Positions 4,047 to 43,716 of a DNA stretch of 46,222 nt are shown in pieces. Position 1 is the stretch's first letter. Every line of letters begins with the position of its first letter. Below the pieces are notes generated by a model. It was given only the letters and a program-made list of their open reading frames with translations, was not told where the DNA came from and searched no databases. This DNA is from Alphaproteobacteria bacterium (lineage in GTDB: Bacteria > Pseudomonadota > Alphaproteobacteria > Rhizobiales > Beijerinckiaceae): the NCBI GenBank assembly GCA_016869595.1, contig VGDT01000022.1, forward strand, positions 1 to 46,222, in the 5' to 3' direction. A program made the position numbers and the translations under genes.

Positions 4047-5084
4047 ATGGACGCCCTTGACAACAAGAGTTCCCCAACATTGACCTCCGTCGATGTCGCG
4101 CCGGCGTTTCCCTCGCAGACGTCGACGATCGGGAGCCGCTTTCGGTTGTTTCTGACCCTTTGGGACAGCCGATTCGAAGATCTGAAGCGGGAAACCTGGG
4201 TTCAGACCACTTATCGCGATTTCAGCGCGGGCCTGATCGTGGCGCTCACCGCGATCCCCATGGCCATGGGGTTCGCCATGGCCATGGGTCTGAGGCCCGA
4301 GCAAGGCATCATCGCCGGGGCGCTGGCCTGCATGGTCGGACGCACCTTCGGCGGCTCGAAATATCAGGTTTACGGCCCGACAGCCGCCTTTATCCCCGTG
4401 ATCGCGGCGCTCGTAAAAAAATACGGCGAAGCCGGGGGCGGCACACTCCCCGAGGCGCACGGCTTTCTCGTATTCGTTTCGATCCTTTCCGGCGTCATTC
4501 TCATGTTCATGGGTCTTTTCGGCCTTGGGAAATACGTCAAACAACTCGTCCCCAACTCTATCATCGTCGGATTTACGGCGGGCATTGCGGTAGCTATCGC
4601 CGCCTCGAACATCGAGTCCGTGCTGGGATTGCGGGACTTTACCGAGCTTCTGGGCGAGGAAGGCGACTTTTTCGGCAGTTTCGAAACGACCATGTCGAGC
4701 CTTTTCAGCAATCTCGACAAGATTAACATTTGGGCCGTCGTACTCGGCCTGTCGACTTTCGCGCTGACGAAAATCCTGTTGCGGATTTCCATCTTCATTC
4801 CGGCGCCGGCGATCGCGATCGCCGTCTGCACGGCGCTGACGGCGACGGTTCTGTCCGGCAAGGGCGTCATCGTCGTGCGCGATATCTACGGCACGATCCC
4901 GAACAACTTTTTTGTGTTCACGCCGCCTGTCCTGCCGGCGATGAATTCAGGCGTGTTGTTTGACATCGTCTATTTCACATTCGCCATTGTTTTCGTTTCC
5001 GGCGTCGAAAGTCTCCTCTGCTCCTCGATGGCGGACCGTCTCGCCGACAAGAGCTATGGCGGAAACTGGGTGATGACGGCGTGA
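4047..5084 (+). pseudogene. SulP transporter (SulP-UspA-UspA fusion), N-terminal part cut by an IS
   Basis: This is the first part of a SulP-family anion permease: YRDFSAGLIVALTAIPMAMG in the first helix, KYQVYGPTAAFIPVI in the substrate region, and further helices to SMADRLAD. SulP proteins carry sulfate, bicarbonate or other anions across the inner membrane. The native sequence ends at the Asp-Lys junction at 5050; codons from 5051 to the TGA at 5082 come from the end of the inserted IS256 element. Joining 5050 to 6452 restores RLADNRGTPFNPDKEFWGQG, an uninterrupted SulP sequence, in frame. The start ATG at 4047 has AGGAAAAGG upstream. The fragment lacks the last helices and is unlikely to work as a transporter alone. 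The remainder is at 6452-7829. Confidence 0.9.
5042..5050. repeat. Target-site duplication, left copy
   Basis: CGCCGACAA, directly next to the left inverted repeat; an identical copy lies at 6443-6451 directly after the right inverted repeat. A duplication of 8-9 bp is normal for the IS256 family. Confidence 0.9.
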
Positions 5085-6442
5085 GGCGAGCGGCGTAACG
5101 GGATTGGTGTGTAGCCGACCCGAACCTCCAGGAAGGAGCGTTACGCCATGAACGAGAATAGAGTTGTCGCTCTCCGGCAGGAAGGCAAAATCGACGATCC
5201 GCTCACGGAAATCCTGCGGGCGGGGGCGAAACGGCTGATTGCGCAGGCCATCGAAGCCGAGTTCGAGACGTTTCTTGCCGCACATACTGATCTTGTGCTG
5301 CCGGACGGGCGGCGGCGGATCGTTCGGCACGGGCGTGAACCGGCGCGCACGATCCAGACCGGGATCGGCCCGGTCGCGGTAGAAAAGCCGAAAGCTCGCG
5401 ACCGCGGGGCGCCGAATTCCGAGGCGCGCATTCGCTACTCCTCATCGATTCTGCCGCAATGGGCGCGGCGCACGAAGAGCCTGGACGCGCTCTTGCCGGC
5501 TCTCTATCTCAGCGGCGTTTCGGCCGGCGATTTTCAGGACGTCCTGACAGCCTTGCTCGGCAAGGATGCGCCCAATCTTTCGCCGGCTGTGATCTCGCGG
5601 CTGAAAGGCGAGTGGGAGTACGAATATCGGCGCTGGCAGGCCCGGGACTTGTCAGCGAGGCGCTATGTCTACCTGTGGGCCGACGGCGTCTATCTGCAAG
5701 CGCGCATGGAGCCGCAGGCCGAGTGCATGTTGGTGCTGATCGGCGCGACGCCCGAGGGCCGGAAGGAGCTGGTCGGCTTTCAGACGGGCATGCGCGAGAG
5801 CGCGCAGAGCTGGAAGGAGTTGCTCGTCGATTTGAAGGCGCGCGGACTTGTCATCGCGCCGGAAATCGCCGTCGGTGACGGCGCGCTCGGCTTCTGGAAG
5901 GCTCTCGACGAGGCGTTCCCGACGACGCGCCATCAGCGCTGTTGGGTTCACAAGACGCTGAACGTCCTCGACAAGCTGCCGAAATCCGTTCAACCGAACG
6001 CGCACAGGGACCTGCGCGACATCTGGCAGGCGCCGAACCGGACGGCGGCCGAGGCGGCGATGACGACCTTCGCCGAGAAATACGCTCCGAAATACGAGAA
6101 GGCCGTCGACTGCCTGCTCAAAGATAGCGGCGCGCTGTTGACGTTCTTCGACTTTCCCGCCGAGCACTTTGCGCATCTGCGCACGTCGAACCCGATCGAG
6201 AGCATATTCGCGACGGTGCGGCATCGCACGGTGCGCATGAAAGGCGCGCTCTCGCAGGACACTGCCCGCCTCATGGTGTTCAAACTCGTGATGGCGGCGT
6301 CGAAAAACTGGCGTCGCCTGAAAGGACAAAATCAGTTGCCGAAAATCATCGAAGGCGTAACATTCCGTGACGGAATCGAGATCGCCCGCGAAACCAAAAC
6401 CGCCGCTTGATCCGCGCCGTCACCCAATATCAGCGATAGCTC
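5051..6442 (+). mobile_element. Complete IS256-family insertion sequence, 1392 bp
   Basis: The element has imperfect 23-bp terminal inverted repeats at 5051-5073 and 6420-6442. Both begin GAGCTAT and end TGGGTGA, and 19 of 23 positions match. It contains one transposase gene and is flanked by the 9-bp direct repeat CGCCGACAA. Removing the element plus one repeat copy (1401 bp, a multiple of three) restores the SulP reading frame. The intact ends and exact duplication point to a fairly recent insertion. No second copy is seen in the window. Confidence 0.92.
5148..6410 (+). CDS. IS256-family transposase
   Basis: The ATG at 5148 has AAGGAG about eight bases upstream. The 420-residue product is a Mutator/IS256-type DDE transposase (Transposase_mut family) at the usual length. 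The N-terminal region (LTEILRAGAKRLIAQAIEAE) is family-typical. The catalytic acids fit YLWADGVYLQAR, VGDGALGFWKAL and the Glu of SNPIESIFATVR. HQRCWVHKTLNVLDKLPKS is the family's conserved CWVHK segment between the second and third acids. It catalyses cut-and-paste or copy-out movement of the element that interrupts the SulP gene. No truncation is visible, so it may still be active. Confidence 0.96.
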   Translation: MNENRVVALRQEGKIDDPLTEILRAGAKRLIAQAIEAEFETFLAAHTDLVLPDGRRRIVRHGREPARTIQTGIGPVAVEKPKARDRGAPNSEARIRYSSSILPQWARRTKSLDALLPALYLSGVSAGDFQDVLTALLGKDAPNLSPAVISRLKGEWEYEYRRWQARDLSARRYVYLWADGVYLQARMEPQAECMLVLIGATPEGRKELVGFQTGMRESAQSWKELLVDLKARGLVIAPEIAVGDGALGFWKALDEAFPTTRHQRCWVHKTLNVLDKLPKSVQPNAHRDLRDIWQAPNRTAAEAAMTTFAEKYAPKYEKAVDCLLKDSGALLTFFDFPAEHFAHLRTSNPIESIFATVRHRTVRMKGALSQDTARLMVFKLVMAASKNWRRLKGQNQLPKIIEGVTFRDGIEIARETKTAA

Positions 6443-6451
6443 CGCCGACAA
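6443..6451. repeat. Target-site duplication, right copy
   Basis: CGCCGACAA, identical to 5042-5050, directly after the right end of the IS256-family element. Confidence 0.9.
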
Positions 6452-7829
6452 TCGCGGCACGCCCTTCAACCCGGACAAGGAATTCTGGGGCCAGGGACTC
6501 GTGCAGATCATCACGCCGATGGTCAATGGCTTCCCCTGCACCGGCGCGCTAGCGCGCACGGCGACGAGCATCAAAGCGGGCGCGGTGACGCCGCTCGCCG
6601 GCTATTTCAAGGGCATTTTGAAACTGACGCTGGCTTATTTCATCGCGGACTATCTGGAGATGGTCCCCATGGCCTGTATCGGCGGCATCCTGCTCTGGGT
6701 CGCCTCGAACATGATCAAAATCTCCGAGATCAAGGAGGTTTTCGCGCACAACAAATTCCATGCCGGCCTGATGATTTTCACGGCGGTGATGGTGCCGGCG
6801 ACGGACTTTCTCACTGGCGTGCTTTCGGCGCTCGTCCTGTATTTCTCGACGCGCGGTTTTCTGGACAAGCCCGCCGCCGCGCGCGCGCCGGTCGCGGCCC
6901 CGGCGATCGCCCCCGAGCGGGAAATTTTTCGCCCCGGCATATTCAACCATGTTGCGGTCGCGCTATCGCTTACCGATGAGGACGACGAGTTGCTCCGTTA
7001 TGCGGAGCGTCTTGCGAGACTGGGTATTTTGCGCGATCTGCATTTCGTCCATATCGTCACCCCCGGCAATGGAGTGATTTCCGTCGACGAGGCGCGGCGG
7101 CTTGCAAACCAGTTGGTCGGTTCGCGCTTCAGGGACGTCGGACATAAAGGCAAGGTCACTGTCGCGGCGGTCGCGGGCGTCAGCCGTCTCGACGAGCTTG
7201 TGAAATTCACGCTAAACGGCGCCGATCTCATTCTGCTTGGTCATCGCAAGGGACGCAGCGGCGCCCGCTTGCTCGCGACAAGGCTCGCGCAAATCACGCA
7301 TTGCTCGGTTTGGATGGTCCCCGCGGGCGGCCCAACGGCCGCGACGAACATCCTCGCGCCGATCGATTTTTCCGAGCGCTCCGCGGACGCGCTGGGACAG
7401 GCCGTCGCCATCGCCCGAACGGCGAAAGTGCCCGCAGTGACGGCGCTACATGTTTATTTCGACCCGTCCGTGCTGCGCTATGAAGAGCATGAATCGCTCG
7501 TCATTGACGATGAAGACGCCCATTTCCGACAATTTATGGGCCGCATCGACACCGATGGCGTCGCGGTTCATCCCGTTTATGTCGAGAGCAGTCGCGCCGC
7601 CGACGCGATTCTGCGTCAGGTGGACGCGGATGGTGTGGATCTCATCGTGCTTGGAACGCGCGGTCGAAGCCAAGCGGCGACGATTCTTCTCGGCTCCGTC
7701 GCTTCCGAAATCATCCGCCGGTCGCCCGTTCCCGTGCTGGCCATAAAGCATTTCGGCGATCAAATGACGATCAAGGACGTGCTGCTATCGGGAAGTTTCT
7801 GGCGCGGCCCCGACATGAAGGCAAACTGA
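6452..7829 (+). pseudogene. SulP-UspA-UspA fusion, C-terminal part displaced by an IS
   Basis: This continues the SulP protein after the IS: RGTPFNPDKEFWGQGLVQII, then ALARTATSIKAGAVTPLAG and the last helices to ALVLYFSTRGFL. Instead of the usual STAS domain there is a linker and two universal-stress-protein domains in tandem. The first runs from HVAVALSLTDEDDELL to ITHCSVWMVPAG and contains LILLGHRKGRSGARLL. The second runs from NILAPIDFSERSADAL to SPVPVLAIKHFG, with the ATP-loop type LIVLGTRGRSQAATILLGSV. Codons are open from the IS border; the first usable start is a GTG at 6501, which would give a truncated permease with both UspA domains. The intact protein would link anion transport to nucleotide-sensing stress domains. 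Whether this half is still expressed, for instance from IS-derived transcription, cannot be told. Confidence 0.88.
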
Positions 7830-16652: not shown

Positions 16653-17006
16653 TTATTTCGCCGCTTCAAAATGGGTCAAAGCCGTCTCGGCGTGTTTGAC
16701 CGCCCTCGCTACGCGGCGGCTCGAATGCGTGTGTTTCGCGGTCTTGATGGCTCTCTTGAGATGCGTGACCCCGGTCTTGATATGCTCGCTGGGCTTTTCC
16801 TTCTGGGCCGCATTGGCGTGATCGAGCGCATTGACGGCGTGCTCGACGAGCGAAGCTGGCTCGTCTCGCTTCCCCTCGTGGATCGCTTCCTTTGTCTCCG
16901 CGATCGCCTGCTCCAAATGGCTGGCCTGAGCGAGCGCCATGCGCGGCGCGACGGCCAACCCCACTGCGGAAGCCACAAGGGCGACCATTAGTCTTCGTGT
17001 CAGCAT
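16653..17006 (-). CDS. smbP: SmbP-like small periplasmic metal-binding protein
   Basis: The ATG at 17006 follows GAGGAGGAAACG, an excellent ribosome site. The 117-residue product has a signal peptide (MLTRRLMVALVASAVGLAV to MALAQ), then repeated helical segments of the SmbP type: HLEQAIAETKEAIHEGKRDE, LVEHAVNALDHANAAQKEKP, GVTHLKRAIKTAKHTHSS and VKHAETALTHFEAAK. His and Asp/Glu recur along the helices, the pattern thought to bind Cu and other divalent metals in SmbP. It should act as a periplasmic metal store or buffer. Relative to the copy at 24375 it has more His and a different C-terminal part, so the copies may differ in metal affinity. Upstream, a possible FNR-type site lies at 17153. 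Confidence 0.85.
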   Translation of the reverse strand: MLTRRLMVALVASAVGLAVAPRMALAQASHLEQAIAETKEAIHEGKRDEPASLVEHAVNALDHANAAQKEKPSEHIKTGVTHLKRAIKTAKHTHSSRRVARAVKHAETALTHFEAAK

Positions 17007-17524: not shown

Positions 17525-18175
17525 ATGACGAATGCTCAAAACCCCATCGAACAACAAAACGGGGCCACCGTCACGAAGGAAGACGAAACCGGCCTTATGA
17601 CGACGCTCGAACATGGGCTGGAAGAAATTGCCACGCAGCCGCCGGCGGTATTGGTCGTCGACGTTGTCAAACTGGATATGCCTTACATCGTGATGTTGTC
17701 CTTGGCGGTGTTCGGCATCGGCCTCATCACTTTCACGGGACAGCCGGCGCCGCTCTATTGGGAAGTTTTAACTCCCATCTATTGCGGCATCTGCATATAT
17801 GTCGGTTGGCGTCACGCCGACAGCCGGGAAAAGCGCGTCGAACTCGTCTGGACCCAGGTTCTGCACTGGTTTGCGGTTCTTCTCGCCATGTGGTTCGTGC
17901 ATCTGGACCTGGTGCGCGACGTGGTCAACAACAACGCCACCGGCCTCAACTTGATGACCGTTCTCGCCCTCGCGACGTTCCTGGCTGGCGTTCACGCCAA
18001 GGCGTGGCAAATCTGCCTCGTGGGCGTGGCGCTCGCGCTTTGCGTTCCCGCGATGGCCTTCGTTCAGCAATCGGCCTTGTTCCTGCTGGTCGCCTTTGGC
18101 GGGATCATTCTCGCCGGCGTCATGCTGTGGGCGTCGACTCATGCTCAAAGACGCAAGGTCGAACAAGCGGCGTGA
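17525..18175 (+). CDS. Polytopic inner-membrane protein of unknown function
   Basis: The ATG at 17525 follows GGGGAGG at eight bases. The 216-residue protein has a soluble N-terminal 50 residues (TLEHGLEEIATQPPAVLVVD) and then about five membrane helices, for example YIVMLSLAVFGIGLITF, LHWFAVLLAMWFVHL and ALFLLVAFGGIILAGVMLW. A short basic tail ends it (HAQRRKVEQAA). No enzyme or transport motif is seen. It precedes the fused P-type ATPase by about 260 bases on the same strand. Common transcription is possible, and it may be a partner of that pump. No family is recognised with confidence. Confidence 0.72.
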   Translation: MTNAQNPIEQQNGATVTKEDETGLMTTLEHGLEEIATQPPAVLVVDVVKLDMPYIVMLSLAVFGIGLITFTGQPAPLYWEVLTPIYCGICIYVGWRHADSREKRVELVWTQVLHWFAVLLAMWFVHLDLVRDVVNNNATGLNLMTVLALATFLAGVHAKAWQICLVGVALALCVPAMAFVQQSALFLLVAFGGIILAGVMLWASTHAQRRKVEQAA

Positions 18176-18433
18176 TGAAGTAAAATGGCGCCAGCGACAG
18201 GGGTGCCTTTCTCCGGACAGGCTCGCTCGAAGAGAGGCGCCCTGATCGCCTCATCCTCGAAATTGTCGCTCGGACGCGCTCGAGACCGCTCCTCGGGAAA
18301 CCTTGGCGAAGGCTGGACACTCCGCATCCAAGGCGCTCCAGAGTATGTTTATCTTGTCTATCCCGGTAAAGCTCCAAATAAGATCGCCGTCGCTCCTCCC
18401 CGCTTCGCTTCCTCGAACCAAGGTCTTCAACAA

Positions 18434-21400
18434 ATGAACAAGCCGATCGATCATTCTGAAAATTGGTCGGCTCTACCCACCGACTCCGTTCTTCAGCGTT
18501 TCGATTCGTCCAGCGGAGGATTGAGCGCCGCCGAGGCCACGCGACGGCTCGCCCAATATGGCCCCAATCGGCTGCCGGGCGGAAGGCGACGAAGCCCGCT
18601 TACCCGTTTTCTGTTGCAGTTCCACAATGTCCTCATCTACGTGCTTATTGCCGCGAGCGTCGTCACCGCCTTCCTCGGACATTGGGTAGACACCGGCGTT
18701 ATCGTCGCGGTAGTCGTGATCAACGCAATCATCGGATTTATTCAGGAAGGCAAAGCGGAACAGGCCATGGACGCCGTCCGCAAAATGCTCTCCCTCCATG
18801 CGACCGTCATTCGTGACGGGTGCCGGCTTGTCGTGGACGCCGACTCGGTTGTTCCTGGCGACATCGTATTTGTTCAGTCCGGGGACAAGGTTCCGGCCGA
18901 TATGCGTCTCATTCGCGTGAAGTCGCTGCAGGTTCAGGAAGCGGCGCTTACCGGCGAGTCGTTGCCGGTCGACAAAGACGTTTCGGCGGTCGCCCCCGAC
19001 GCGCTTCTCGGCGACCGTGCGTCTATGGCTTACTCTGGCACCGTCGTGACATACGGCCAGGGCACGGGCATCGTTGTCGCGACAGGCTCCACGACGGAAA
19101 TCGGCCGCATTAGCGCCATGTTGTCCGAGGTCGAGGAACTGACCACGCCTCTGCTTCAGCGCATGGCCGATTTCGCGCGATGGCTGACAGTCGTCATTCT
19201 TCTTCTGGCTGCGGCGGTGTTTCTTTTCGGAACTTTCGTATGGAGTTTTGCGCCTTCCGAAATGTTCATGGCGGCGGTCGGACTGGCCGTATCGGCGATT
19301 CCGGAAGGCCTCCCGGCAATCATCACGATCACGCTCGCCATCGGCGTCGAGCGCATGGCGCGTCGCAACGCCATTATTCGCCGCCTTCCCGCCGTCGAAA
19401 CACTAGGGGCAGTGACGACCATCTGTTCGGACAAGACCGGCACCCTCACGCGCAACGAGTTGACTGCGCGGACCGTCGTCACCACGAATTCGATCTATGA
19501 AACCTCCGGCTCTGGTTACGATCCGCACGGCGGCTTCACCAAGGACGGGCAGGACGTCCTGGTCGACGGCGCGCCGGATCTCGCTGAAATTCTGCGCGCC
19601 GCCGCTTTGTGCAATGATGCGGTCTTGCACGAGAAAGACGATGTCTGGAGTATTGACGGCGATCCGACCGAAGGCGCTCTGCTAACCGCAGCTGTCAAAG
19701 CCGGCGTCGATTTGCGCTTGCAGTCGCAGGGGCTTCCAAGAACGGATGAAATTCCCTTCGAGTCCCAGCACCGCTTCATGGCGACGTTGCATCACGATCA
19801 CCTCGGGAACGGCTATATTTTCGTGAAGGGCGCGCCTGAGCGCCTGCTCGAAACGTGCTTTTGGCAGCGTGACGGTGGTGAGGAGCAACGACCGCTCGAC
19901 AGCAGTTGTTGGCTCGCGCGTATCGACGAAATCGCGGCGAAGGGACAGCGCGTGCTGGGCATCGCTGCGAAACGCACCGTCGCCGACCATTGCGAGCTTA
20001 CATTTGGCGACGTCGAGACCGGGCTGACATTCCTTGGCCTCATCGGCTTGATCGACCCGCCGAGGGAAGAAACCCTTGACGCCGTCCGTCAATGCGCCGG
20101 GGCAGGAATCGGCGTGAAGATGATAACGGGCGATCACGCGGCGACAGCGGTCGCGATCGGCCGGGAGTTGGGGCTCAAGAATCCAGGCGCGGTTCTTACG
20201 GGCCGAGATCTCGACGCGCTGTCAGATGAAGAATTGGGCGATGCAGTCTTGAACACGAGCATTTTCGCCCGCACGAGCCCCGAGCACAAGCTGCGTCTCG
20301 TGAAGGCGTTGCAAAGTCATGGCCAGATCGTCGCCATGACCGGAGACGGCGTCAACGACGCCCCGGCGCTCAAACGCGCCGATATTGGCATCGCCATGGG
20401 CGTGAAAGGTACGGAGGCCGCGAAAGAAGCGGCCGAAATGGTGCTGGCAGACGACAATTTCGCCTCGATCGTGCACGCGGTGCACGAAGGCCGCGTGGTC
20501 TATGAGAATCTGAAGAAGACGATCCTCTACATTCTGCCGACAAATGGCGGCGAAGCCATGACCGTTGTTTCGGCGATTGCGCTCGGCGAAGTTCTGCCGG
20601 TGACGCCGGTGCAGATACTCTGGATCAATCTTATCACCGCGGTAACGCTGGGTTTGGCGCTGGCTTTTGAACCGCCCTCGCCCGGCATTATGGCGCGTCC
20701 GCCACGCGGTGCGAAGGAGCCGATTCTATCAGGATATTTCGTGTGGCGGATTGTTTTTGTCTCCTTCCTGATGCTTATCGCGACTTTCGGCCTTTACGAA
20801 TTCGAAAAAGCGGAAGGAATGGGGCTCGACAGCGCCCGCACGGTTGCGGTCAACACGCTGGTCACGTGTGAAGTAACCTATCTCTTCAATGCGCGGTTCC
20901 TATCGGAGCCGTCGATATCCTGGCGAGGTTTCTTCGGCAGTCGGGCGGCGCTCGTCGCCGTCGGCCTCGTCGTTATATTTCAAGCTCTGTTCACTTACGC
21001 GCCGTGGATGCAGACATGGTTCGGCACAGTGGCGTTAGACTTCGAAACCTGGGTTCACATCATCGCCGCCAGCATCGCGCTATTTTGCTTCGTGGAAATC
21101 GAGAAAGCTCTTTTTCGTTCCAGTGCGACGCGAGAATTTTGGCGCAGGATGTTTTCTTTTTTGCTCCCGTTGCGCGCCAACCGGCGCCGCTGGGTTCGGC
21201 CACTGAGCGCCGCCTTGCTCGTCGCTCTCGTTCTTGGCGGCGGATGGGCGTACCGTTCTTTTTATCTGGGCGGCGAGCGTTACGTGACGCACAAGATCGC
21301 GCGCGTCGTGACCACCGCGGGCGTCGTCAACCCCATCGCCGTCGCTCCGCTAGGAGCGCAGGCTTCGGGCGTCGTCCAAGCGATCTACTGCGATCGCGGA

Positions 21401-22087
21401 ACGAAAGTGGCGAAGGGCCAGCGTTGCGCGAAGCTTGATCCGCGTCCCTTTGAAAACGCCATCAAACGGGAGAAAAACGCGCTAACGGCGGCGGAGGCGC
21501 AACTCGCCACAAGCAAGATGAAACTCCTTTCAGCGCAGGCGGATCTGGATTACAAGACCACGCTCTCGAAGCGCCGCGCCATCACTCGCAAGGCGCTTGA
21601 CGCCTCTCAAAGAGCGGTAGAGCGAGCACAGACGCGTGTTAGACTGCATGAGTCAACGATCGTCGCGCGTCGGCAAGCGCTGGCGACCGCCGAGGCGGCG
21701 CTCGCTAAGACCGACGTTCTTGCACCTTCTGAAGGAATTGTGATCGCGCGAAACGTCGAGGCGGGAACGCCGGTTACGGCGGACGTCGACACGTCGCTCT
21801 TCCTCGTTGCAACTGATCTAACGAAGGTGCGAGTAGCGATCGAGGCCGGCGAGAAAGATGCTGACCAGATCAAGGTCGGCAACACGGCTGTCGTCACGGT
21901 CGCGACGCTCCCCGCAAAGAAATACCCCGGCGTGGTCAGCAGCGTGCGACGGGCGGAGGCGCCAAGCGAAAATGGCGTCATGTACGATGTAACGATCGAC
22001 GCAGCCAACCCTGATTTGCTGCTCCAGCCGGGCATGACGGCATTGGCGCGCATCGATGTTGACGGACTTGACGCTTCAACGCAGTGA
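18434..22087 (+). CDS. P-type cation ATPase fused to an HlyD/MacA-like periplasmic adaptor
   Basis: A single frame of 1217 residues from the ATG at 18434. Residues 1-900 are a P2-type ATPase: actuator motif LTGESLPVDK (Thr173-Glu176), phosphorylation motif CSDKTGTLT (Asp333), hinge TGDGVNDAPALKRADIGIAM, and the M4 motif AIPEGLPAIITITLAIG typical of Ca2+/Mn2+/H+ pumps. After the last ATPase helix there is a basic linker (LRANRRRWVRPLS), an extra span (SAALLVALVLGGGWAYRSFY, about residues 924-943) and a complete adaptor. This has a lipoyl-like half (GVVQAIYCDRGTKVAKGQ), an alpha-hairpin coiled coil (about 1005-1090), the second lipoyl half (LAPSEGIVIARNVEAGTPV) and a beta-barrel ending LLLQPGMTALARIDVDG. 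Topology fits: the ATPase C-terminus is cytoplasmic and the extra helix puts the adaptor in the periplasm. Such adaptors normally serve RND, MFS or MacB pumps. No known fused form is recalled. The longer upstream frame (from 18185) lacks the ATPase N-terminal pattern and is not used. Confidence 0.9.
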   Translation: MNKPIDHSENWSALPTDSVLQRFDSSSGGLSAAEATRRLAQYGPNRLPGGRRRSPLTRFLLQFHNVLIYVLIAASVVTAFLGHWVDTGVIVAVVVINAIIGFIQEGKAEQAMDAVRKMLSLHATVIRDGCRLVVDADSVVPGDIVFVQSGDKVPADMRLIRVKSLQVQEAALTGESLPVDKDVSAVAPDALLGDRASMAYSGTVVTYGQGTGIVVATGSTTEIGRISAMLSEVEELTTPLLQRMADFARWLTVVILLLAAAVFLFGTFVWSFAPSEMFMAAVGLAVSAIPEGLPAIITITLAIGVERMARRNAIIRRLPAVETLGAVTTICSDKTGTLTRNELTARTVVTTNSIYETSGSGYDPHGGFTKDGQDVLVDGAPDLAEILRAAALCNDAVLHEKDDVWSIDGDPTEGALLTAAVKAGVDLRLQSQGLPRTDEIPFESQHRFMATLHHDHLGNGYIFVKGAPERLLETCFWQRDGGEEQRPLDSSCWLARIDEIAAKGQRVLGIAAKRTVADHCELTFGDVETGLTFLGLIGLIDPPREETLDAVRQCAGAGIGVKMITGDHAATAVAIGRELGLKNPGAVLTGRDLDALSDEELGDAVLNTSIFARTSPEHKLRLVKALQSHGQIVAMTGDGVNDAPALKRADIGIAMGVKGTEAAKEAAEMVLADDNFASIVHAVHEGRVVYENLKKTILYILPTNGGEAMTVVSAIALGEVLPVTPVQILWINLITAVTLGLALAFEPPSPGIMARPPRGAKEPILSGYFVWRIVFVSFLMLIATFGLYEFEKAEGMGLDSARTVAVNTLVTCEVTYLFNARFLSEPSISWRGFFGSRAALVAVGLVVIFQALFTYAPWMQTWFGTVALDFETWVHIIAASIALFCFVEIEKALFRSSATREFWRRMFSFLLPLRANRRRWVRPLSAALLVALVLGGGWAYRSFYLGGERYVTHKIARVVTTAGVVNPIAVAPLGAQASGVVQAIYCDRGTKVAKGQRCAKLDPRPFENAIKREKNALTAAEAQLATSKMKLLSAQADLDYKTTLSKRRAITRKALDASQRAVERAQTRVRLHESTIVARRQALATAEAALAKTDVLAPSEGIVIARNVEAGTPVTADVDTSLFLVATDLTKVRVAIEAGEKDADQIKVGNTAVVTVATLPAKKYPGVVSSVRRAEAPSENGVMYDVTIDAANPDLLLQPGMTALARIDVDGLDASTQ

Positions 22088-22219: not shown

Positions 22220-23071
22220 TCATGGCGTTACGAGCATATCGCAGAAGGGCGCGTTCAAATATTCCTCCGTCCTGCTTCCAATCAGAGCCGCTAATCCGCG
22301 GCCGCTCATCCCCATGGCCATCAGATCCGGCTTTAGTCTCTTGGCGGCCTTCCCGATGCCTGCGGCGACGTCGTCGCGTTCGAGCACGGTTTTGACTTCG
22401 GGAAAGGAGAGATCGGCGTGACGGGTGAGAAAATTGCGCATTTCCTCCTGGACGTCCAACTCGATCTTGGTCGAACGCTCCCGCCCATATTCCTCCAGTT
22501 CTTTTTCGTTGAAATGAATGAAGGCGGGATAAGGCGTCTCGTAGACATGCAAGACATGGAACTCCGCCTGCGGCGCGATCGTCACGGCGGCGCGCAAAGC
22601 GCGCTTGGCGCAGGGCGAAAAATCGGTTGCCGCGAGAACTCGCCGGTAGGGACCCCGAGCTGGATCCTTGACGATCAGGAGAGGCGCGTCGCAGCCCTCT
22701 AAAATGTAATAAGCTGTCGTCTGGAAGAACAGGTCCGCGATCGGGCTTTCCCGATGGGCGCCAAGAACAATCAGGTCCGCGTCAGTTTGGCGCGCCAGCG
22801 CTGCGATTTCGTGGGCCGGATTACCGATAGCGACGCGATAATTGACTTTCAATTCGGCTGGCACCGAGTACTCACGAAGCTTTTGATCAGCGCGCGCCAG
22901 CACCGTCTCGGCGCGGGAGCTTTCAGCTTCATCCCCATGCGCGGCGATATGCGCGAGCGTCAATTCGGTTCCGTGCTGAGTGGCGAGCTGAACGGCCCGG
23001 CCGAAAACATGGTCGGGTTGCGCGTTCAGATCGATAGCGGCAAGGATATGTTTCAGGGCCATCTCCTCCAT
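22220..23071 (-). CDS. Universal stress protein, two tandem UspA domains
   Basis: The 283-residue protein has two UspA domains. The first runs from HILAAIDLNAQPDHVFGRAV to APLLIVKD, with LIVLGAHRESPIADLFF replacing the usual GxxG-9-G(S/T) loop. The second runs from YRRVLAATDFSPCAKRALRA to CDMLVTP, with LMAMGMSGRGLAALIGSRTE. UspA proteins are cytosolic and bind ATP or AMP in some members; they support survival in stress or starvation. The ATG at 23071 gives MEEMALKHI; the second Met (23062) is preceded too closely by GGAGGAG, so the first is used. It is convergent with the fused ATPase gene. The tandem form matches the UspA pair fused to SulP at 6452-7829, but the sequences are not close copies. 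Confidence 0.93.
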   Translation of the reverse strand: MEEMALKHILAAIDLNAQPDHVFGRAVQLATQHGTELTLAHIAAHGDEAESSRAETVLARADQKLREYSVPAELKVNYRVAIGNPAHEIAALARQTDADLIVLGAHRESPIADLFFQTTAYYILEGCDAPLLIVKDPARGPYRRVLAATDFSPCAKRALRAAVTIAPQAEFHVLHVYETPYPAFIHFNEKELEEYGRERSTKIELDVQEEMRNFLTRHADLSFPEVKTVLERDDVAAGIGKAAKRLKPDLMAMGMSGRGLAALIGSRTEEYLNAPFCDMLVTP

Positions 23072-35212: not shown

Positions 35213-35338
35213 TCCGCCTCAGCCTGCGGCATTACGCGCTTCTTAGCGTCGTTGTCTTCGCGATCGCAGCCGAATAGTCTGATTTACGGTCGCGACCGCC
35301 GGAAATGTTCAACAACGGCGCATGCCGCTGTTCGTGTG

Positions 35339-37144
35339 ATGGGGCCCCGCGGTCCTCGTTCGGAAACGGAGGCGCCGCTGTCCGACAATGCTACCCGCTA
35401 CGCAACGATTCGCAAGAATTCGGCCTCCTTTGCAGTTCCTCCAAACCTTGTGGACTATCACACCGCTTGCTCCGCGTTCAGTTGGGATCGAGCGCGCAAG
35501 GACTTGAGCGGTTTGCCGTCCGGCGGCCTCAACATCGCTTATGAAGCGGTCGATCGGCATGCGCGCGGGCCCCGCGCGAGGCGTGTGGCGCTGCGCTGCA
35601 TCGGCAAGGCGGGAGAGCGCCGCGATTACACGTATGGCGAACTGGCCGCGTTCACCAATCGCTTCGCCAATGTTTTGCAGTCAATGGGCGTGAAGGCGGG
35701 AGACAGCGTCTTTGTTCTGCTCGGGCGCGTCCCGGAGCTTTACGTCGCGATGCTGGGCGCGTTGAAAGCGAAGTGCGTCGTTTCGCCGCTTTTTTCGGCT
35801 TTTGGGCCCGAGCCGATCGCGACCCGCATGGAGATCGGCGAAGCGCGCGTGCTAATCACGACTGAAGCGCTCTATCGGCGCAAGGTTGAAGCGCTGCGGG
35901 GACGCTTGCCCAAGCTCGACTGCGTTATACTCGTCGACGCCGACGAGTATGGCGAGAGAACGCGCTCCTGGCGCAAGCTGACGCGAGCGGCGTCGGACGC
36001 TTTTGAGACGCCAGCCACCCATCCGCAAGAGGCGGCGCTGCTGCATTTCACCAGTGGCACGACCGGGCGCCCCAAGGGCGTGATCCATGTGCATGAGGCC
36101 GTGGTGACGCATTACGCGACCGGACTCTACGCGCTCGATCTGCATGACAATGATCGCTTCTGGTGCACGGCGGACCCCGGCTGGGTGACCGGCACGAGCT
36201 ATGGCGTCATCGCGCCGCTTACGCATGGCGTGACCAATATTGTCGTCGAGGCGGAATTCGACGCGCCCACGTGGTACGGCCTGCTCGCGCAGGAAAAAAT
36301 CAGCGTCTGGTACACCGCGCCGACGGCCATCCGCATAATGATGAAGCTCGGCGCGTCTGCCGTGAAAAACTATGATCTATCCGCGCTGCGTTTCGCCGCC
36401 AGCGTCGGCGAGCCCTTGAATGCGGAGGCGGTGGTCTGGGGAATGGAGGCGTTTGGCCTGCCCTTCCACGACAATTGGTGGCAAACCGAGGCGGGCGGCA
36501 TCATGATTGCCAATTTCGCATCCATGGACGTCAAGCCAGGTTCGATGGGCCGGCCATTGCCGGGAATCGAAGCTAGCATTGTCAGGAGGAAAGCCGACGG
36601 CGGCGTCGAAACCGTCGCCGCGGGCGAAGAAGGTGAACTCGCACTAAAAACTGGCTGGCCGTCGATGATGCGCGGCTACCTTCATGAGGAAGCGCGCAAG
36701 AAATGCTTCGCCGACGGATGGTATCTCACCGGCGATCTCGCACGTTGCGACGAAGACGGCTACTTCTGGTTTGTGGGGCGCGCCGACGACGTGATCAAGT
36801 CCTCGGGCCATCTCATCGGCCCCTTCGAAGTCGAAAGCGCACTGATGGAGCATCCCGCCGTGGCCGAGGCCGCGGTGATCGGCAAGCCGGACCCCATCGC
36901 GGGTGAGATCGTCAAGGCGTTTGTCGCCTTGAAGCTTGGGTTTGAAGCGGACGAAGCCATACGCAAGGAACTGCTTGGGCACGCGCGCAAGCGGCTCGGC
37001 GCCGCCGTAGCGCCGAAGGAAATCGAGTTTCGCGCCAATCTGCCGAAGACGCGCAGCGGCAAGATCATGCGGCGCTTGCTCAAGGCGCGCGAGCTCGGCC
37101 TGCCGGAAGGCGATCTTTCGACGCTGGAGAGCGACGAGCGATGA
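35339..37144 (+). CDS. AMP-forming acyl-CoA ligase (acetyl-CoA synthetase-like)
   Basis: An adenylate-forming ligase of about 600 residues. It shows the P-loop motif [69 protein letters not shown] and [20 protein letters not shown], and the C-terminal catalytic Lys in [11 protein letters not shown]. These are closest to acetyl- or propionyl-CoA synthetases. The start is uncertain: ATG 35339 has no ribosome site, whereas a CTG at 35381 has GGAGG at six bases. Family sequence is clear from about 35430. Its stop overlaps the E1 alpha start (ATGA), so it is the first gene of the five-gene operon to 40548. It activates acetate or another acid for the operon, or feeds the ACP; which one is unknown. 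Confidence 0.92.
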
Positions 37145-38127
37145 CCAAGAAAGTGCATCTCGATCACGCCCACTTGCTTCATCTCTTGAAAGCGATGATC
37201 CGTATCCGGCATTTCGAGGCAAAATGCGTCGAACTCTATCAGGCGCAAAAAATTCTTGGCTTTCTTCATCTCTACGACGGCGAGGAAGCGGTCTCAGTCG
37301 GCGTCATGGAAGCGCTGACGCCGGAAGACGCCATTCTCGCGACCTATCGCGAACATGGGCAGGCGCTGGCCCGCGGCGTCGATATGAGGTGCCTGATGGC
37401 GGAAATGATGGGCAAGCTCAACGGATGCTGCCGCGGGCGCGGCGGCTCCATGCATTTCTTCGATCGCGCGCGTCGCTTTTACGGCGGCAACGCGATTGTC
37501 GGCGGCGGTCTTCCATTGGCGCTCGGCGTCGCGCTCGCGGATAAAATGCAGGGGCGGCCCGCCGTCACCGCTTGCTTCTTCGGCGAAGGCGCAGTGGACG
37601 AAGGCGAGTTTCACGAGACGCTCAATCTCGCCAAGCTCTGGCGGCTTCCGATTCTCTTCATCTGCGAAAACAATCTCTATTCCATGGGCATGGCGGTCGA
37701 GCGCGCCGAGGCTGATGTCGATTTCGTGCACAAGGCGTCGAGCTACAAGGTCGCCGGCGAGAAAGTGGACGGCATGGACGTCGTCGCCGTCGAGAGCGCG
37801 GCGAGAAACGCCGTCGATAGAATTCGCAGCGAAAGCGATCCCTATTTCCTCGAATGCGCGACTTATCGCTTCCGCGCGCATTCCATGTTCGACGCGCAAC
37901 TCTACCGTTCGAAGGAAGAGGTCGAAGCCTGGCGCAAGAAGGGGCCGATCGAGCGTTTTCAGACTTGGCTGGAATCCAACAAATTGATCAAGCCAGACGA
38001 GCTTTCAGCGATCGAGAAGGAGGTCGACGCCGAGATCGCGGCGGCGGTCGCTTTCGCGGAAGCCGGCCCGCTCGAACCAGTCTCGGAACTCGAGCGCTTC
38101 GTTACGATGGAAGAGGTCCCCGCGTGA
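37141..38127 (+). CDS. pdhA: 2-oxoacid dehydrogenase E1 alpha (pyruvate dehydrogenase-like)
   Basis: The 328-residue protein carries the thiamine-diphosphate motif from [20 protein letters not shown] to ICENN, and [20 protein letters not shown] and [20 protein letters not shown] of the E1 alpha subunit. The substrate is pyruvate or acetoin by resemblance. It decarboxylates the oxoacid and, with E1 beta, loads the acetyl unit onto the E2 lipoyl group. Start ATG 37141 overlaps the ligase stop and its own stop overlaps the GTG of E1 beta, so expression is tightly coupled. No E3 (dihydrolipoamide dehydrogenase) gene is in the operon; it must be supplied from elsewhere. Confidence 0.95.
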
Positions 38128-40797: not shown

Positions 40798-43518
40798 TCA
40801 TGCGGTGAACCGTCGCCGAACGGAACGCAGAGCGACTTGTCCCGCTTTGCGCACTTCCTCGAAGAGCAACACTTGCGCCGCGACGCCGACGGCGACGCCC
40901 CAATCGATCGCGCTCAAGTCGGTTGTCTTGAAGACTTCCTGCGCCGGCGGCCAATGCACCGCGACTGCCTGGAGCGCCAACACGGCGGCCAACGAAAGCC
41001 ACAGCAGTTCGTTATCAAAGAGGTGGGCGTCGAAGGTCGTGCCGTTCTCATTGCGAGCATTGAACAAATTGAAGAATTGGAAAAGCACAAAGGTTGTAAA
41101 GGCCATCGTGAGCGCGCGTTGCTCGCCGCCAGTGCTTACGCCAACAAATAGTACGGCGAGCGTGCCCACCATCATGGTGATCCCGAAGGCAAGGATTTGC
41201 GTCACGCGCGCGCCCGTAAGTATGGCTTCGGTCCGGCTCCGCGGCTTCTCGAGCATGATGCCGGGCCGCGCCGCGTCAAGCGCGAGAGAAACGGCAGGCG
41301 GGCCATCCATGATGATTGCAATCCACAAGATCTGAATAGGCGTGAACGGCTCTGGTAGACCCGCGAGCGGCGCGAAGAAAACCGTGAGGATCGCGGCCAC
41401 CGTGGTGGAAAGTTGAAAGCGAACAAATTTCACGATGTTGTCATAGAGCACGCGTCCCTGCCGAACGGCCCTCACGATCGTCTCGAAGTTATCATCCGTG
41501 AGCACCATGGTCGCGGCCTCTTTAGCGACAGCCGCGCCGCCGCGTCCCATGGCGACGCCGATATCGGCTTGTTTCAAGGCTGGCGCGTCGTTGACGCCGT
41601 CGCCTGTCATCGCAACGACATGGCCCTTCACCTGCAACGCGCGCACGATTTTTACCTTGTGCGCCGGCGTGACGCGGGCGAACACTACGATATCATCAAT
41701 GATGGATGACAGTTCAAGCGAGTCCAGCCGATCGAGGACGGACCCATCGACTGACGCCCCTTCCAAACCAAGCTCTCTGGCGATTGCCGTCGCCGTGACT
41801 TGATGGTCTCCGGTGATCATCTTCACTGCGACGCCAGCTCGCCGACACTGGGCGATGGCCTCCTTTGCCTCGGGGCGCGGCGGGTCCATAAGACCAACCA
41901 AGCCGACGAATGTTAGCTGATCGACCCAAGCGGCCAAGTCTCCAGAGGAATCGAATTTGTTAGTTGGGATGCTTCGCATCGCGACCAGTAGGCCGCGCAG
42001 CCCACGTTCGGCGAGCAAGAGGTACTCGGCATCGATCAATTGCCGAACGCTGTCGCGCAACGACTGTTTCCCGTCTGCTGCAATCCAATCGACGCAGCGG
42101 TCGACCAAGAGCTCGGGAGCGCCTTTGACGAACAACTGGATCTGATCGCCGTCCGAATGAAAGGTGGCCATGAATTTGTGCGTCGTATCGAACGGGATTT
42201 CGGCAAGCCGCGGGAGCCTTCGGACGACGTCGGCTTGCGACACTCCGCCCTTTGCCGCCAAGACCAGCAGGGCGGCTTCCGTCGGGTCGCCCACGAACGC
42301 TCCATCGTCAACATAACTATCGTTACACGCGACGAGCGGAGTTAGAAACGGGGTTAGGTCGGCCAAAATCGGTCGTGATTCCTCACGCCGAATCCCGCCT
42401 TCCGTTTGATAGCCCTCGCCGGAGGCCTCGTATAAATCTCCTTGGAAAAAGAAAGCCCTAGCCGTCATTTGATTAAGTGTGAGGGTTCCGGTCTTGTCGG
42501 AGCAGATAACCGTCGTGCAGCCTAAGGTTTCGACGCTGGCCAGGCGTCTTACAATCGCGCGCTGGCGCGCCATCTGACGCATCCCGAGCGCAAGAGTCAC
42601 GGTGACCACCACCGGCAAGCCCTCGGGGACGGCGGCAACGGCAAGCGCGATTGCGTCCATCAAGACGTGGGCGAGGTCGCTGCCCCGCAACACTTCCAGA
42701 AAGGACAGCAAACCGACAAGGGTCAACGCGATCGCGCCGAGACGCTTTCCGAGGTGGTTGAGTTCAATTTGCAAGGGAGTCGGCGGCTCTTCGGCGACCG
42801 ACAATTCGGAGGACAGCAGGCCCATCTCGGTCTGCGCGCCAATGGCGGTCACAATCAACTCGGCGCGCCCACGCGTGACCATCGTATTCATGTAGGCCAT
42901 GTTCGACCGATCGCCCAAGGGAGTGTCCGCAGAACCGACAGCCGCGACTTGCTTACCGACCGGCTGTGACTCGCCGGTAAGCGTCGATTCGTCGATCTCC
43001 AGCCCGGCTGCGACCCACAACCTGCCGTCCACGGGAACGCGATCGCCAGCTTCGAGCAACACGACATCGCCCAGCACGAGATCGTCGGCGCTTATTTCGC
43101 ATGTGGCGCTTTTCCTTCTCACGCGCGCTCTTGGCGGTAGCATTTTCTTGAGAGCCGCGAGACTCCGTTCAGCGCGGTACTCTTGGAAAAATCCAACGAA
43201 AGCGTTGATGAAGACAACAGTGAGAATAACGGCCGCGTCCTTGAGGTTGCCGATCGTAGCGGCAATGAGAGCGGCGCCGAACAAGATCGCGATCAAAATA
43301 CTCTTGAACTGCGTGTAGAACACGAGCAAGGCCGAGCGCGCCGGCTGCTCAGGTAGCCGGTTCATTCCGTGCAGCTGACGACGCTGCTCAACCTCCTCCA
43401 ACCCGAGACCAGCTTCGGGCTGGACCTGAAGGCGCTCCGCCGTCTCATCAGGCGACAACATATGCGCCGGCGGAATCGCGCTCGGAAGAGCCGTAGAATT
43501 TCGCATTTTGTTTGTCAT
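40798..43518 (-). CDS. P-type cation-transporting ATPase (P2A-like)
   Basis: A 906-residue P2-type ATPase: actuator STLTGESQPVGK, M4 AAVPEGLPVVVTVTLALGMR, phosphorylation site CSDKTGTLTLN (Asp341), ATP site FDTTHKFMATFHSDGDQIQL and KGAPE, hinge MTGDGVNDAPALKQADIGVA. M6 has AIIMDGPPAVSLALD, as in Ca2+ or cation pumps of this group. It has about ten helices and no adaptor extension, unlike the pump at 18434. ATG 43518 (MTNKMRN) is chosen because PAHMLSPDETAERLQ, the usual N-terminal cap, follows; no clear ribosome site precedes it and ATG 43506 is an alternative. Probably exports Ca2+ or a similar divalent cation; the ion is not fixed by sequence. Confidence 0.93.
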   Translation of the reverse strand: MTNKMRNSTALPSAIPPAHMLSPDETAERLQVQPEAGLGLEEVEQRRQLHGMNRLPEQPARSALLVFYTQFKSILIAILFGAALIAATIGNLKDAAVILTVVFINAFVGFFQEYRAERSLAALKKMLPPRARVRRKSATCEISADDLVLGDVVLLEAGDRVPVDGRLWVAAGLEIDESTLTGESQPVGKQVAAVGSADTPLGDRSNMAYMNTMVTRGRAELIVTAIGAQTEMGLLSSELSVAEEPPTPLQIELNHLGKRLGAIALTLVGLLSFLEVLRGSDLAHVLMDAIALAVAAVPEGLPVVVTVTLALGMRQMARQRAIVRRLASVETLGCTTVICSDKTGTLTLNQMTARAFFFQGDLYEASGEGYQTEGGIRREESRPILADLTPFLTPLVACNDSYVDDGAFVGDPTEAALLVLAAKGGVSQADVVRRLPRLAEIPFDTTHKFMATFHSDGDQIQLFVKGAPELLVDRCVDWIAADGKQSLRDSVRQLIDAEYLLLAERGLRGLLVAMRSIPTNKFDSSGDLAAWVDQLTFVGLVGLMDPPRPEAKEAIAQCRRAGVAVKMITGDHQVTATAIARELGLEGASVDGSVLDRLDSLELSSIIDDIVVFARVTPAHKVKIVRALQVKGHVVAMTGDGVNDAPALKQADIGVAMGRGGAAVAKEAATMVLTDDNFETIVRAVRQGRVLYDNIVKFVRFQLSTTVAAILTVFFAPLAGLPEPFTPIQILWIAIIMDGPPAVSLALDAARPGIMLEKPRSRTEAILTGARVTQILAFGITMMVGTLAVLFVGVSTGGEQRALTMAFTTFVLFQFFNLFNARNENGTTFDAHLFDNELLWLSLAAVLALQAVAVHWPPAQEVFKTTDLSAIDWGVAVGVAAQVLLFEEVRKAGQVALRSVRRRFTA

Positions 43519-43716
43519 CTTGATTTGCGGCTGCGCGCACGACTTCACCGCCGACAACAAGTGCGCCGGAGTTTATTTCGGTGCGCTCCAGCCCGCCATT
43601 TGGCATGACGTAACGGTGCCTTCCTCCAGCCTGCTGGAGCAACTGCGAGGCAGGTTAGATTGAATGCCCCGGGGCAAATCATCGCATGCCGATCTCGTTA
43701 TTTCTGGGGCCGAATA

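Follow-up and report, generated by a model that had tools for sequence, protein, structure and literature searches.

The inner-membrane transporters of tripartite efflux systems belong to the ABC, RND or MFS family, as set out in PMC8277102. Here we describe a gene in which a periplasmic adaptor is carried by a P-type ATPase. It lies on a stretch of 46,222 nucleotides (assembly GCA_016869595.1, contig VGDT01000022.1, positions 1 to 46,222; hereafter the window) from a genome of the genus Methylocystis assembled in 152 contigs. The closest described systems are the P2A Ca2+-ATPases (LMCA1, PDB 6zhf, and the PMR1 and SERCA types) and MacA of MacAB-TolC (PDB 5nik, 9qgy). P2 ATPases have ten transmembrane (TM) helices and a C terminus on the inside. 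The window protein shares with the P2A Ca2+-ATPases their domains, motifs and most SERCA ligand positions, while it runs on into an extra TM helix and an adaptor. Its adaptor module shares with MacA the fold, the domain order and the TM anchor, and MacA is its best match in sequence and structure; unlike MacA, the module stands within the chain of an ion pump, has no adjoining MacB in the window and lacks the membrane-proximal C-terminal part.

A P2-type ATPase and a MacA-like adaptor in one frame

The ATPase-adaptor fusion gene (18434..22087, forward strand) is an uninterrupted frame of 1217 residues with no separating stop, as a first-pass annotation had read it from the bare sequence; an alternative in-frame ATG lies at 18185. 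Its parts, all on the same strand, begin with the P2-type ATPase (residues 11-895, 18464..21118), delimited by Pfam, by alignment to the Listeria Ca-ATPase 6zhf and by a family alignment. TGES, DKTGT and GDGVND are present together with the P2 membrane core, D333 is the aspartyl-phosphate site, and the closest solved ATPase is the Listeria enzyme (E 6.7e-161). After TM10 come a basic linker, with a net charge of +8 over residues 893-925, and a further helix at about residues 924-944 (21119..21274; hydropathy and AlphaFold). Residues 955-1210 are a MacA-like periplasmic adaptor, made up of a first lipoyl half with the conserved Cys986 and Cys998 (21302..21436), a coiled-coil hairpin of 92 residues, MacA-like, with a basic tip in which Y1040, L1044 and T1051 occupy the MacA RLS positions (21443..21706), a second lipoyl half (21713..21793; Pfam and AlphaFold) and a beta-barrel domain (21800..22060). 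The chain ends directly past the barrel; a homologue, L050, runs 82 residues on.

Pfam places P2-type ATPase models over residues 11-892, HlyD_D23 over 968-1203 and HlyD_3 over 1095-1200, and in NCBIfam both P-type ATPase and RND-type adaptor models exceed their cut-offs within the protein. For residues 905-1217, AlphaFold returned a model from 28 sequences with a predicted local distance difference test score (pLDDT) of 88 and MacA as top structural match; MacA is also the closest solved adaptor for the module family (9qgy, E 1.3e-43). In the full-length model the ATPase part was poor (mean pLDDT 61) and was left unused. The domain anatomy described earlier, with P-type motifs, an extra TM helix, two lipoyl halves, hairpin and beta-barrel, is borne out by Pfam, NCBIfam and AlphaFold. 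The periplasmic location of the adaptor stands as well, since one extra helix after TM10 carries the chain across the membrane from an inside C terminus. We considered whether the adaptor is made separately, from a start inside the gene, and rejected the idea: although an ATG stands in frame near residue 907, no internal start is conserved across six homologues. What the sequence encodes is a P2-type cation ATPase with a C-terminal MacA-derived periplasmic adaptor module and TM anchor. The first-pass annotation was right about this fusion, while it overlooked the missing membrane-proximal part and the mobile nature of the module described below.

At the SERCA-type ligand positions, located through 6zhf and family alignments, the window ATPase has E291, N704, E707, N732, T735 and E813, and it has A736 at the position of SERCA D800, the M6 aspartate that SERCA needs. 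It also scores below the equivalog cut-offs for PMR1/SERCA-type Ca2+ pumps (646.8 of 798.3 bits for TIGR01522 and 625.5 of 703.4 bits for TIGR01116). Several unfused relatives have alanine at the same position, which makes it a trait of the subfamily and not a result of the fusion. Elsewhere in the order, other families have unfused cation P-type ATPases (54-57% identical) that belong to the same ATPase subfamily and have a similar M6 motif; unlike the window protein they stop after TM10, and none of their six loci, each 12-15 kb long, was found to contain an adaptor frame, nor was L051 (38%). The window holds a second, unfused P2 ATPase (40798-43560, reverse strand), which scores above the cut-off of the PMCA-type Ca2+ pump model and is about 41-43% identical to the first.

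The same fusion recurs in related genomes, and its homologues are not always two proteins: at least one uninterrupted ATPase-adaptor frame is present in 30 of 37 Methylocystis genomes (28 with a single-frame gene verified on the fetched locus, plus G011 and G034). Within the window's class (class A), full-length relatives are 72-76% identical to the window in the ATPase part and 36-65% in the adaptor. The copy on the M. rosea plasmid pGW6_1 is annotated as one coding sequence, and the gene annotation of the M. rosea plasmid (NZ_CP034087) names a HAD-IC family P-type ATPase only. Frames can differ, as is seen from a split Methylocystis copy (L072, the same as L168, G017:C15; L072 3120-6717), where an ATPase of 993 residues and an adaptor of 252 residues occupy two overlapping frames, and from L160 (G021:C2), where a break in the ATPase precedes the adaptor part. 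These copies alone would favour an assembly or frameshift artefact that joins two genes, but an open junction is seen in all 30 of these Methylocystis genomes, and two other genera supply more examples, some of the genomes being complete; we give such an artefact practically no chance. The many assemblies likewise rule out a joining of two genes by sequencing error.

Carriers and descent of the module

The same cysteine-paired module is found C-terminal on P2, P3A (H+) and P1B ATPases, on the F-type ATPase alpha subunit, on CyoD (bo-oxidase subunit IV), on a four-TM protein and on an AHSA1 protein. The P3A H+-ATPase fusions L112 and L149 score above the curated cut-off of TIGR01647. P1B-type ATPases with a hemerythrin domain carry the module in L116, L121, L123 and L163 (L116 above the cut-off of the heavy-metal ATPase model TIGR01525); this ATPase is unfused in Methylocella tundrae, where a remnant like the first lipoyl half lies on a plasmid just downstream of its gene (L139 9297-10028). 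CyoD fusions occur in L115, L117, L144, L164, L190, L192, L196 and L201, with L117 above the TIGR02847 cut-off, and those of L115, L117 and L201 stand downstream of genes that by eye resemble cyoA/cyoB. The alpha-subunit fusion of L162 (5291-7864, reverse strand) matches PF00006 (ATP-synt_ab), PF00306 (ATP-synt_ab_C) and HlyD_D23, and two more were found in Methylocystis (L169 3245-5830; L170 3233-5746); in L169 the gene sits amid a, c, b and gamma genes in an arrangement like an N-ATPase operon, as judged by eye and with the family test made for alpha only, in L162. The AHSA1 fusions come from Methylosinus genomes (L119, L202 and L204), and in L114 the carrier is a four-TM protein without family. 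Other P2-subfamily fusions exist, among them L041 and L052 with an N-terminal AI-2E transporter; in L113 an AI-2E-like gene, recognised by eye, is separate and overlaps the ATPase-adaptor gene by four bases.

A further 40 loci contributed two of the alpha, two of the AHSA1 and one of the four-TM fusions and more of the CyoD, P1B, P3A and P2 kinds, with the carriers named by query similarity. The pooled set of 82 fused modules of at least 200 residues, with identical modules removed and near-copies included, comprises 40 on P2 ATPases, 17 on P1B, 12 on CyoD, five on P3A, three on AtpA, three on AHSA1 and two on four-TM proteins; 66 further modules have no recognised carrier, some being cut fragments. 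On contig C57 of the window's own genome, another P2 ATPase bears TPR repeats on its N-side and is cut by the contig end (L034 3-2792, reverse strand). Among 13 fusions expected to have a TM helix ahead of the module, hydropathy called one in eight, and a hydrophobic stretch was seen by eye in the other five; in two CyoD fusions, L115 and L117, the third CyoD helix leads directly into the module, with no additional TM. Where checked, the topology fits the carriers, with the membrane orientation of CyoD as we assume it. The first-pass annotation knew of no described case, and in the open-access literature, most subscription journals lying outside it, none of the papers listed was recognised as describing fusions of an adaptor with P-type ATPases, F-ATPase subunits or CyoD.

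The module is mobile, since one cysteine-paired lineage sits on P1B, P2, P3A, F-type alpha, CyoD and two other carriers. In a tree of 84 rows (drawn up without L072, L099, L024, L029, L034, L039, L053 and weak-adaptor-score rows such as L127), a single branch separates all 43 fused modules from 41 free adaptors, with a value of 100 in the Shimodaira-Hasegawa-like approximate likelihood ratio test. A larger set of 136 rows was cleared of near-copies, fragments and modules shorter than 200 residues, hence of the window module, L036 and the barrel-less rows; the window module was restored for the counts of motifs, cysteines and charge, which refer to 78 fused and 58 free modules. In this set a tree that keeps 78 rows together (77 fused modules and L183, a module without recognised carrier that nests among them) was better by 61.8 log units, with p = 0.944 in the approximately unbiased test, but the unconstrained tree, larger and noisier than that of 84 rows, did not unite the fused modules (three changes) and so speaks against their unity. 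All 78 fused modules have the cysteine pair of the first lipoyl half, as do all 12 free MacA-like adaptors in the nearest clade, against 0/46 other free adaptors. In a tree built for 34 P2 ATPases, in which label B covers two ATPase families, five changes of fused state are required, and well-supported branches force three of these. From the trees, the shared cysteine pair and these five changes, the probable history is a single capture of a MacA-type adaptor followed by moves from carrier to carrier, although part of the pattern could be imitated by losses.

Four of the free relatives (L128-L131), with the same cysteine pair, adjoin ABC genes of MacB-like size and motifs. This would suit a reading in which the fused modules are MacA copies parked on other proteins and working with a MacB-like ABC transporter encoded elsewhere. 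We hold it to be very improbable, as the membrane-proximal part is missing in the window protein and in most fusions listed, and among nine mapped fusion loci P-loop and LSGG motifs occurred in a neighbouring frame at L119 only, a frame that looked spurious.

The ratio of non-synonymous to synonymous substitution rates (dN/dS), computed with our own Nei-Gojobori script for 14 chosen pairs, is 0.22-0.67 in the module and 0.08-0.16 in the ATPase, and stays below one in 14/14. The module is under purifying selection that is weaker than on the ATPase; it is constrained, but loosely. Its fast evolution, the forms without barrel or tip, the remnant in M. tundrae, the split copy and the broken ATPase of L160, and the diversity of the carriers would all agree with a passenger, spread by recombination and tolerated as a C-terminal appendage that has no specific function and slowly decays. 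We consider this rather improbable, given the selection seen in every pair, the invariant cysteines, the intact fusions kept by most Methylocystis genomes and a topology that suits each carrier where tested.

The hairpin tip and the proposed role of the module

The first-pass annotation had seen in the fusion a possible one-step route by which cations would be exported through both membranes. In such a built-in tripartite pump, the adaptor would hexamerise round the ATPases and dock TolC. The MacA fold and, mostly, the hairpin length are retained, the topology is periplasmic, a metal-binding SmbP is encoded near some fusions, and outer-membrane factor genes abound, with 12 PF02321 matches in the window's own genome and matches in 12/12 genomes surveyed. 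On the window's contig no outer-membrane factor gene was found, nor was there a PF02321 match on the own-genome fusion contigs C22, C46 and C90 or the ATPase-fragment contig C86, all short. Among the matches listed, some outer-membrane factor genes lie, by their coordinates, within about 2-13 kb of fusions in G250, G021, G010, G136 and G019, and those near L113 and L144 resemble, by eye, parts of separate RND sets.

The altered tip of the hairpin speaks against the usual TolC conduit. The leucine of the RLS motif, the TolC contact, is kept in 22/78 fused modules and thus lost in 56, as against 55/58 free adaptors (12/12 near, 43/46 far); RL[ST] is found in 5/78 fused and 44/58 free modules, and the window module reads Y-L-T. 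The mean net charge of the tip is +4.4 in fused modules, compared to +1.1 in near and +0.6 in far free adaptors; the rows of these comparisons are related, so that p-values are not strict. Tips are shortened in L125, L126, L042 and L043, and the barrel is absent in three Methylocystis fusions (L020, L038, L040). Moreover, CyoD, F-ATPase alpha and AHSA1 hold no substrate for a conduit, which makes a general conduit function unlikely. One-step export thus finds little favour as a general account, and the tripartite pump seems to us unlikely, while TolC-linked export is possible for some P-type members.

The loss of the tip leucine, the polybasic tip and the carriers unable to feed a conduit favour a tether or an oligomerisation device. 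We propose, at even chances, that the adaptor would serve in the periplasm for oligomerisation and tethering, and not as a TolC-gated conduit of the usual export kind, with the ATPase pumping its cation in the ordinary P2 way. The lipoyl, barrel and hairpin parts may cluster ion-pumping complexes; alternatively, the basic tip may dock them to an acidic partner, be it a membrane, an outer-membrane component or a cell-wall element. The missing membrane-proximal part fits P-type carriers, which have no large periplasmic domains: in the passages of PMC4446572 that treat them, these domains are restricted to adaptors whose transporters have large periplasmic domains.

Several points weigh against this proposal. 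The leucine is kept in 5/6 rows of the window's own subclade, L004 and L056 have a full RLS, and hairpin length is retained in most rows. The same passages of PMC4446572 describe RLS as absent from some TolC-binding adaptors, so that its loss is not decisive, and the loss of the membrane-proximal domain is also consistent with a transporter without periplasmic domains. Tethering and its partner are both putative and are themselves inferred, and the carriers are so unlike that a single function is assumed, AHSA1 being no pump at all. Going further, the module might be a plug-in by which unrelated primary ion pumps (P-type and F-type ATPases and cytochrome bo oxidase) are brought together in ordered or tethered assemblies in some alphaproteobacterial methanotrophs, perhaps tied to internal membrane stacks. 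This would be a bioenergetic organisation not described before, and we offer it tentatively.

Neighbourhood, distribution and pmoA

Directly upstream of the fusion gene, a 216-residue hydrophobic protein of no known family is encoded at 17525..18175 (forward strand), with relatives near fusions at 6/43 loci (L038, L039, L040, L053, L120, L122), in Methylocystis and Methylosinus. The small metal-binding protein SmbP (16653..17006, reverse strand) has relatives near fusions at 6/43 loci as well (L053, L056, L120, L122, L152, L153), and a universal stress protein gene follows downstream (22220..23071, reverse strand). The SmbP and 216-residue neighbours hint at metal or stress physiology and do not indicate a substrate. 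Elsewhere in the window, a Mutator-family transposase gene (5148-6410) seems to interrupt a gene for a sulfate permease that ends in a universal stress domain (4047-7829), and AMP-binding and E1 dehydrogenase genes (35252-38127) are duplicated with 89-91% identity at L036, on contig C90, by another ATPase-adaptor gene.

Methylocystis and its relatives are known for methane oxidation. Our genome searches kept best matches only, and absences hold for the matches listed. Within these, fusions were found only in Methylocystis, in Methylosinus (g66; including G201, strain OB3b, and G136, strain C49), in a third genus of the same family (g64) and on a Methylocapsa plasmid (pRX1 of Methylocapsa polymorpha), which has a P1B-module gene with the N-part of the ATPase in another frame. 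A scan of named genomes by pattern gave 53 loci: ten single-frame ATPase fusions (nine from Methylocystis or Methylocystaceae, and L060 from an Alphaproteobacteria bacterium), the split copy L072 and 42 loci without recognised carrier. Outside the family, where the search took in 397 order-level and 385 class-level genomes, the listed matches lie mostly in frames of 380-560 residues, and in 12 longer frames (11 of at least 680 residues from the order search and the longest at class level, G697) none of seven carrier queries was found in the adaptor frame. The same seven queries had no match in 6/8 listed frames of at least 700 residues from pmoA-negative genomes (all but G216 and G186), nor in the adaptor frame at the loci of G009, G134 and G003.

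In a sample of 199 genomes of the family, pmoA (PF02461) occurs in 20, confined to exactly the three fusion genera, and 17/20 carry fusions (8/8, 7/8 and 2/4 by genus); the matches listed for the other 179 showed no fusion, with six long-frame loci checked. Among the 37 Methylocystis genomes, 26 have both fusion and pmoA, four the fusion only (G001, G017, G023, G028), three pmoA only (G002, G009, G013) and four neither (G003, G008, G015, G020; the adaptor match of G008 contains a stop and was counted negative). This loose match rules out a one-to-one link between fusion and pmoA, and the looser association within Methylocystis means that it may reflect shared ancestry or exchange rather than function.

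Altogether, the parts are known, and their arrangement matches no known kind of system that we found. The transporters that periplasmic adaptors are known to serve are of the ABC, RND and MFS kinds; in the present case a single lineage has been joined, apparently repeatedly, to primary ion pumps of several unrelated superfamilies. Since Methylosinus trichosporium OB3b, a model strain in the laboratory, carries such fusions, on a P2 ATPase (L127), CyoD (L201) and an AHSA1 protein (L202), their function is directly testable. The finding bears on the organisation of ion pumps and respiratory enzymes in methane-oxidising bacteria and on adaptor roles beyond efflux.

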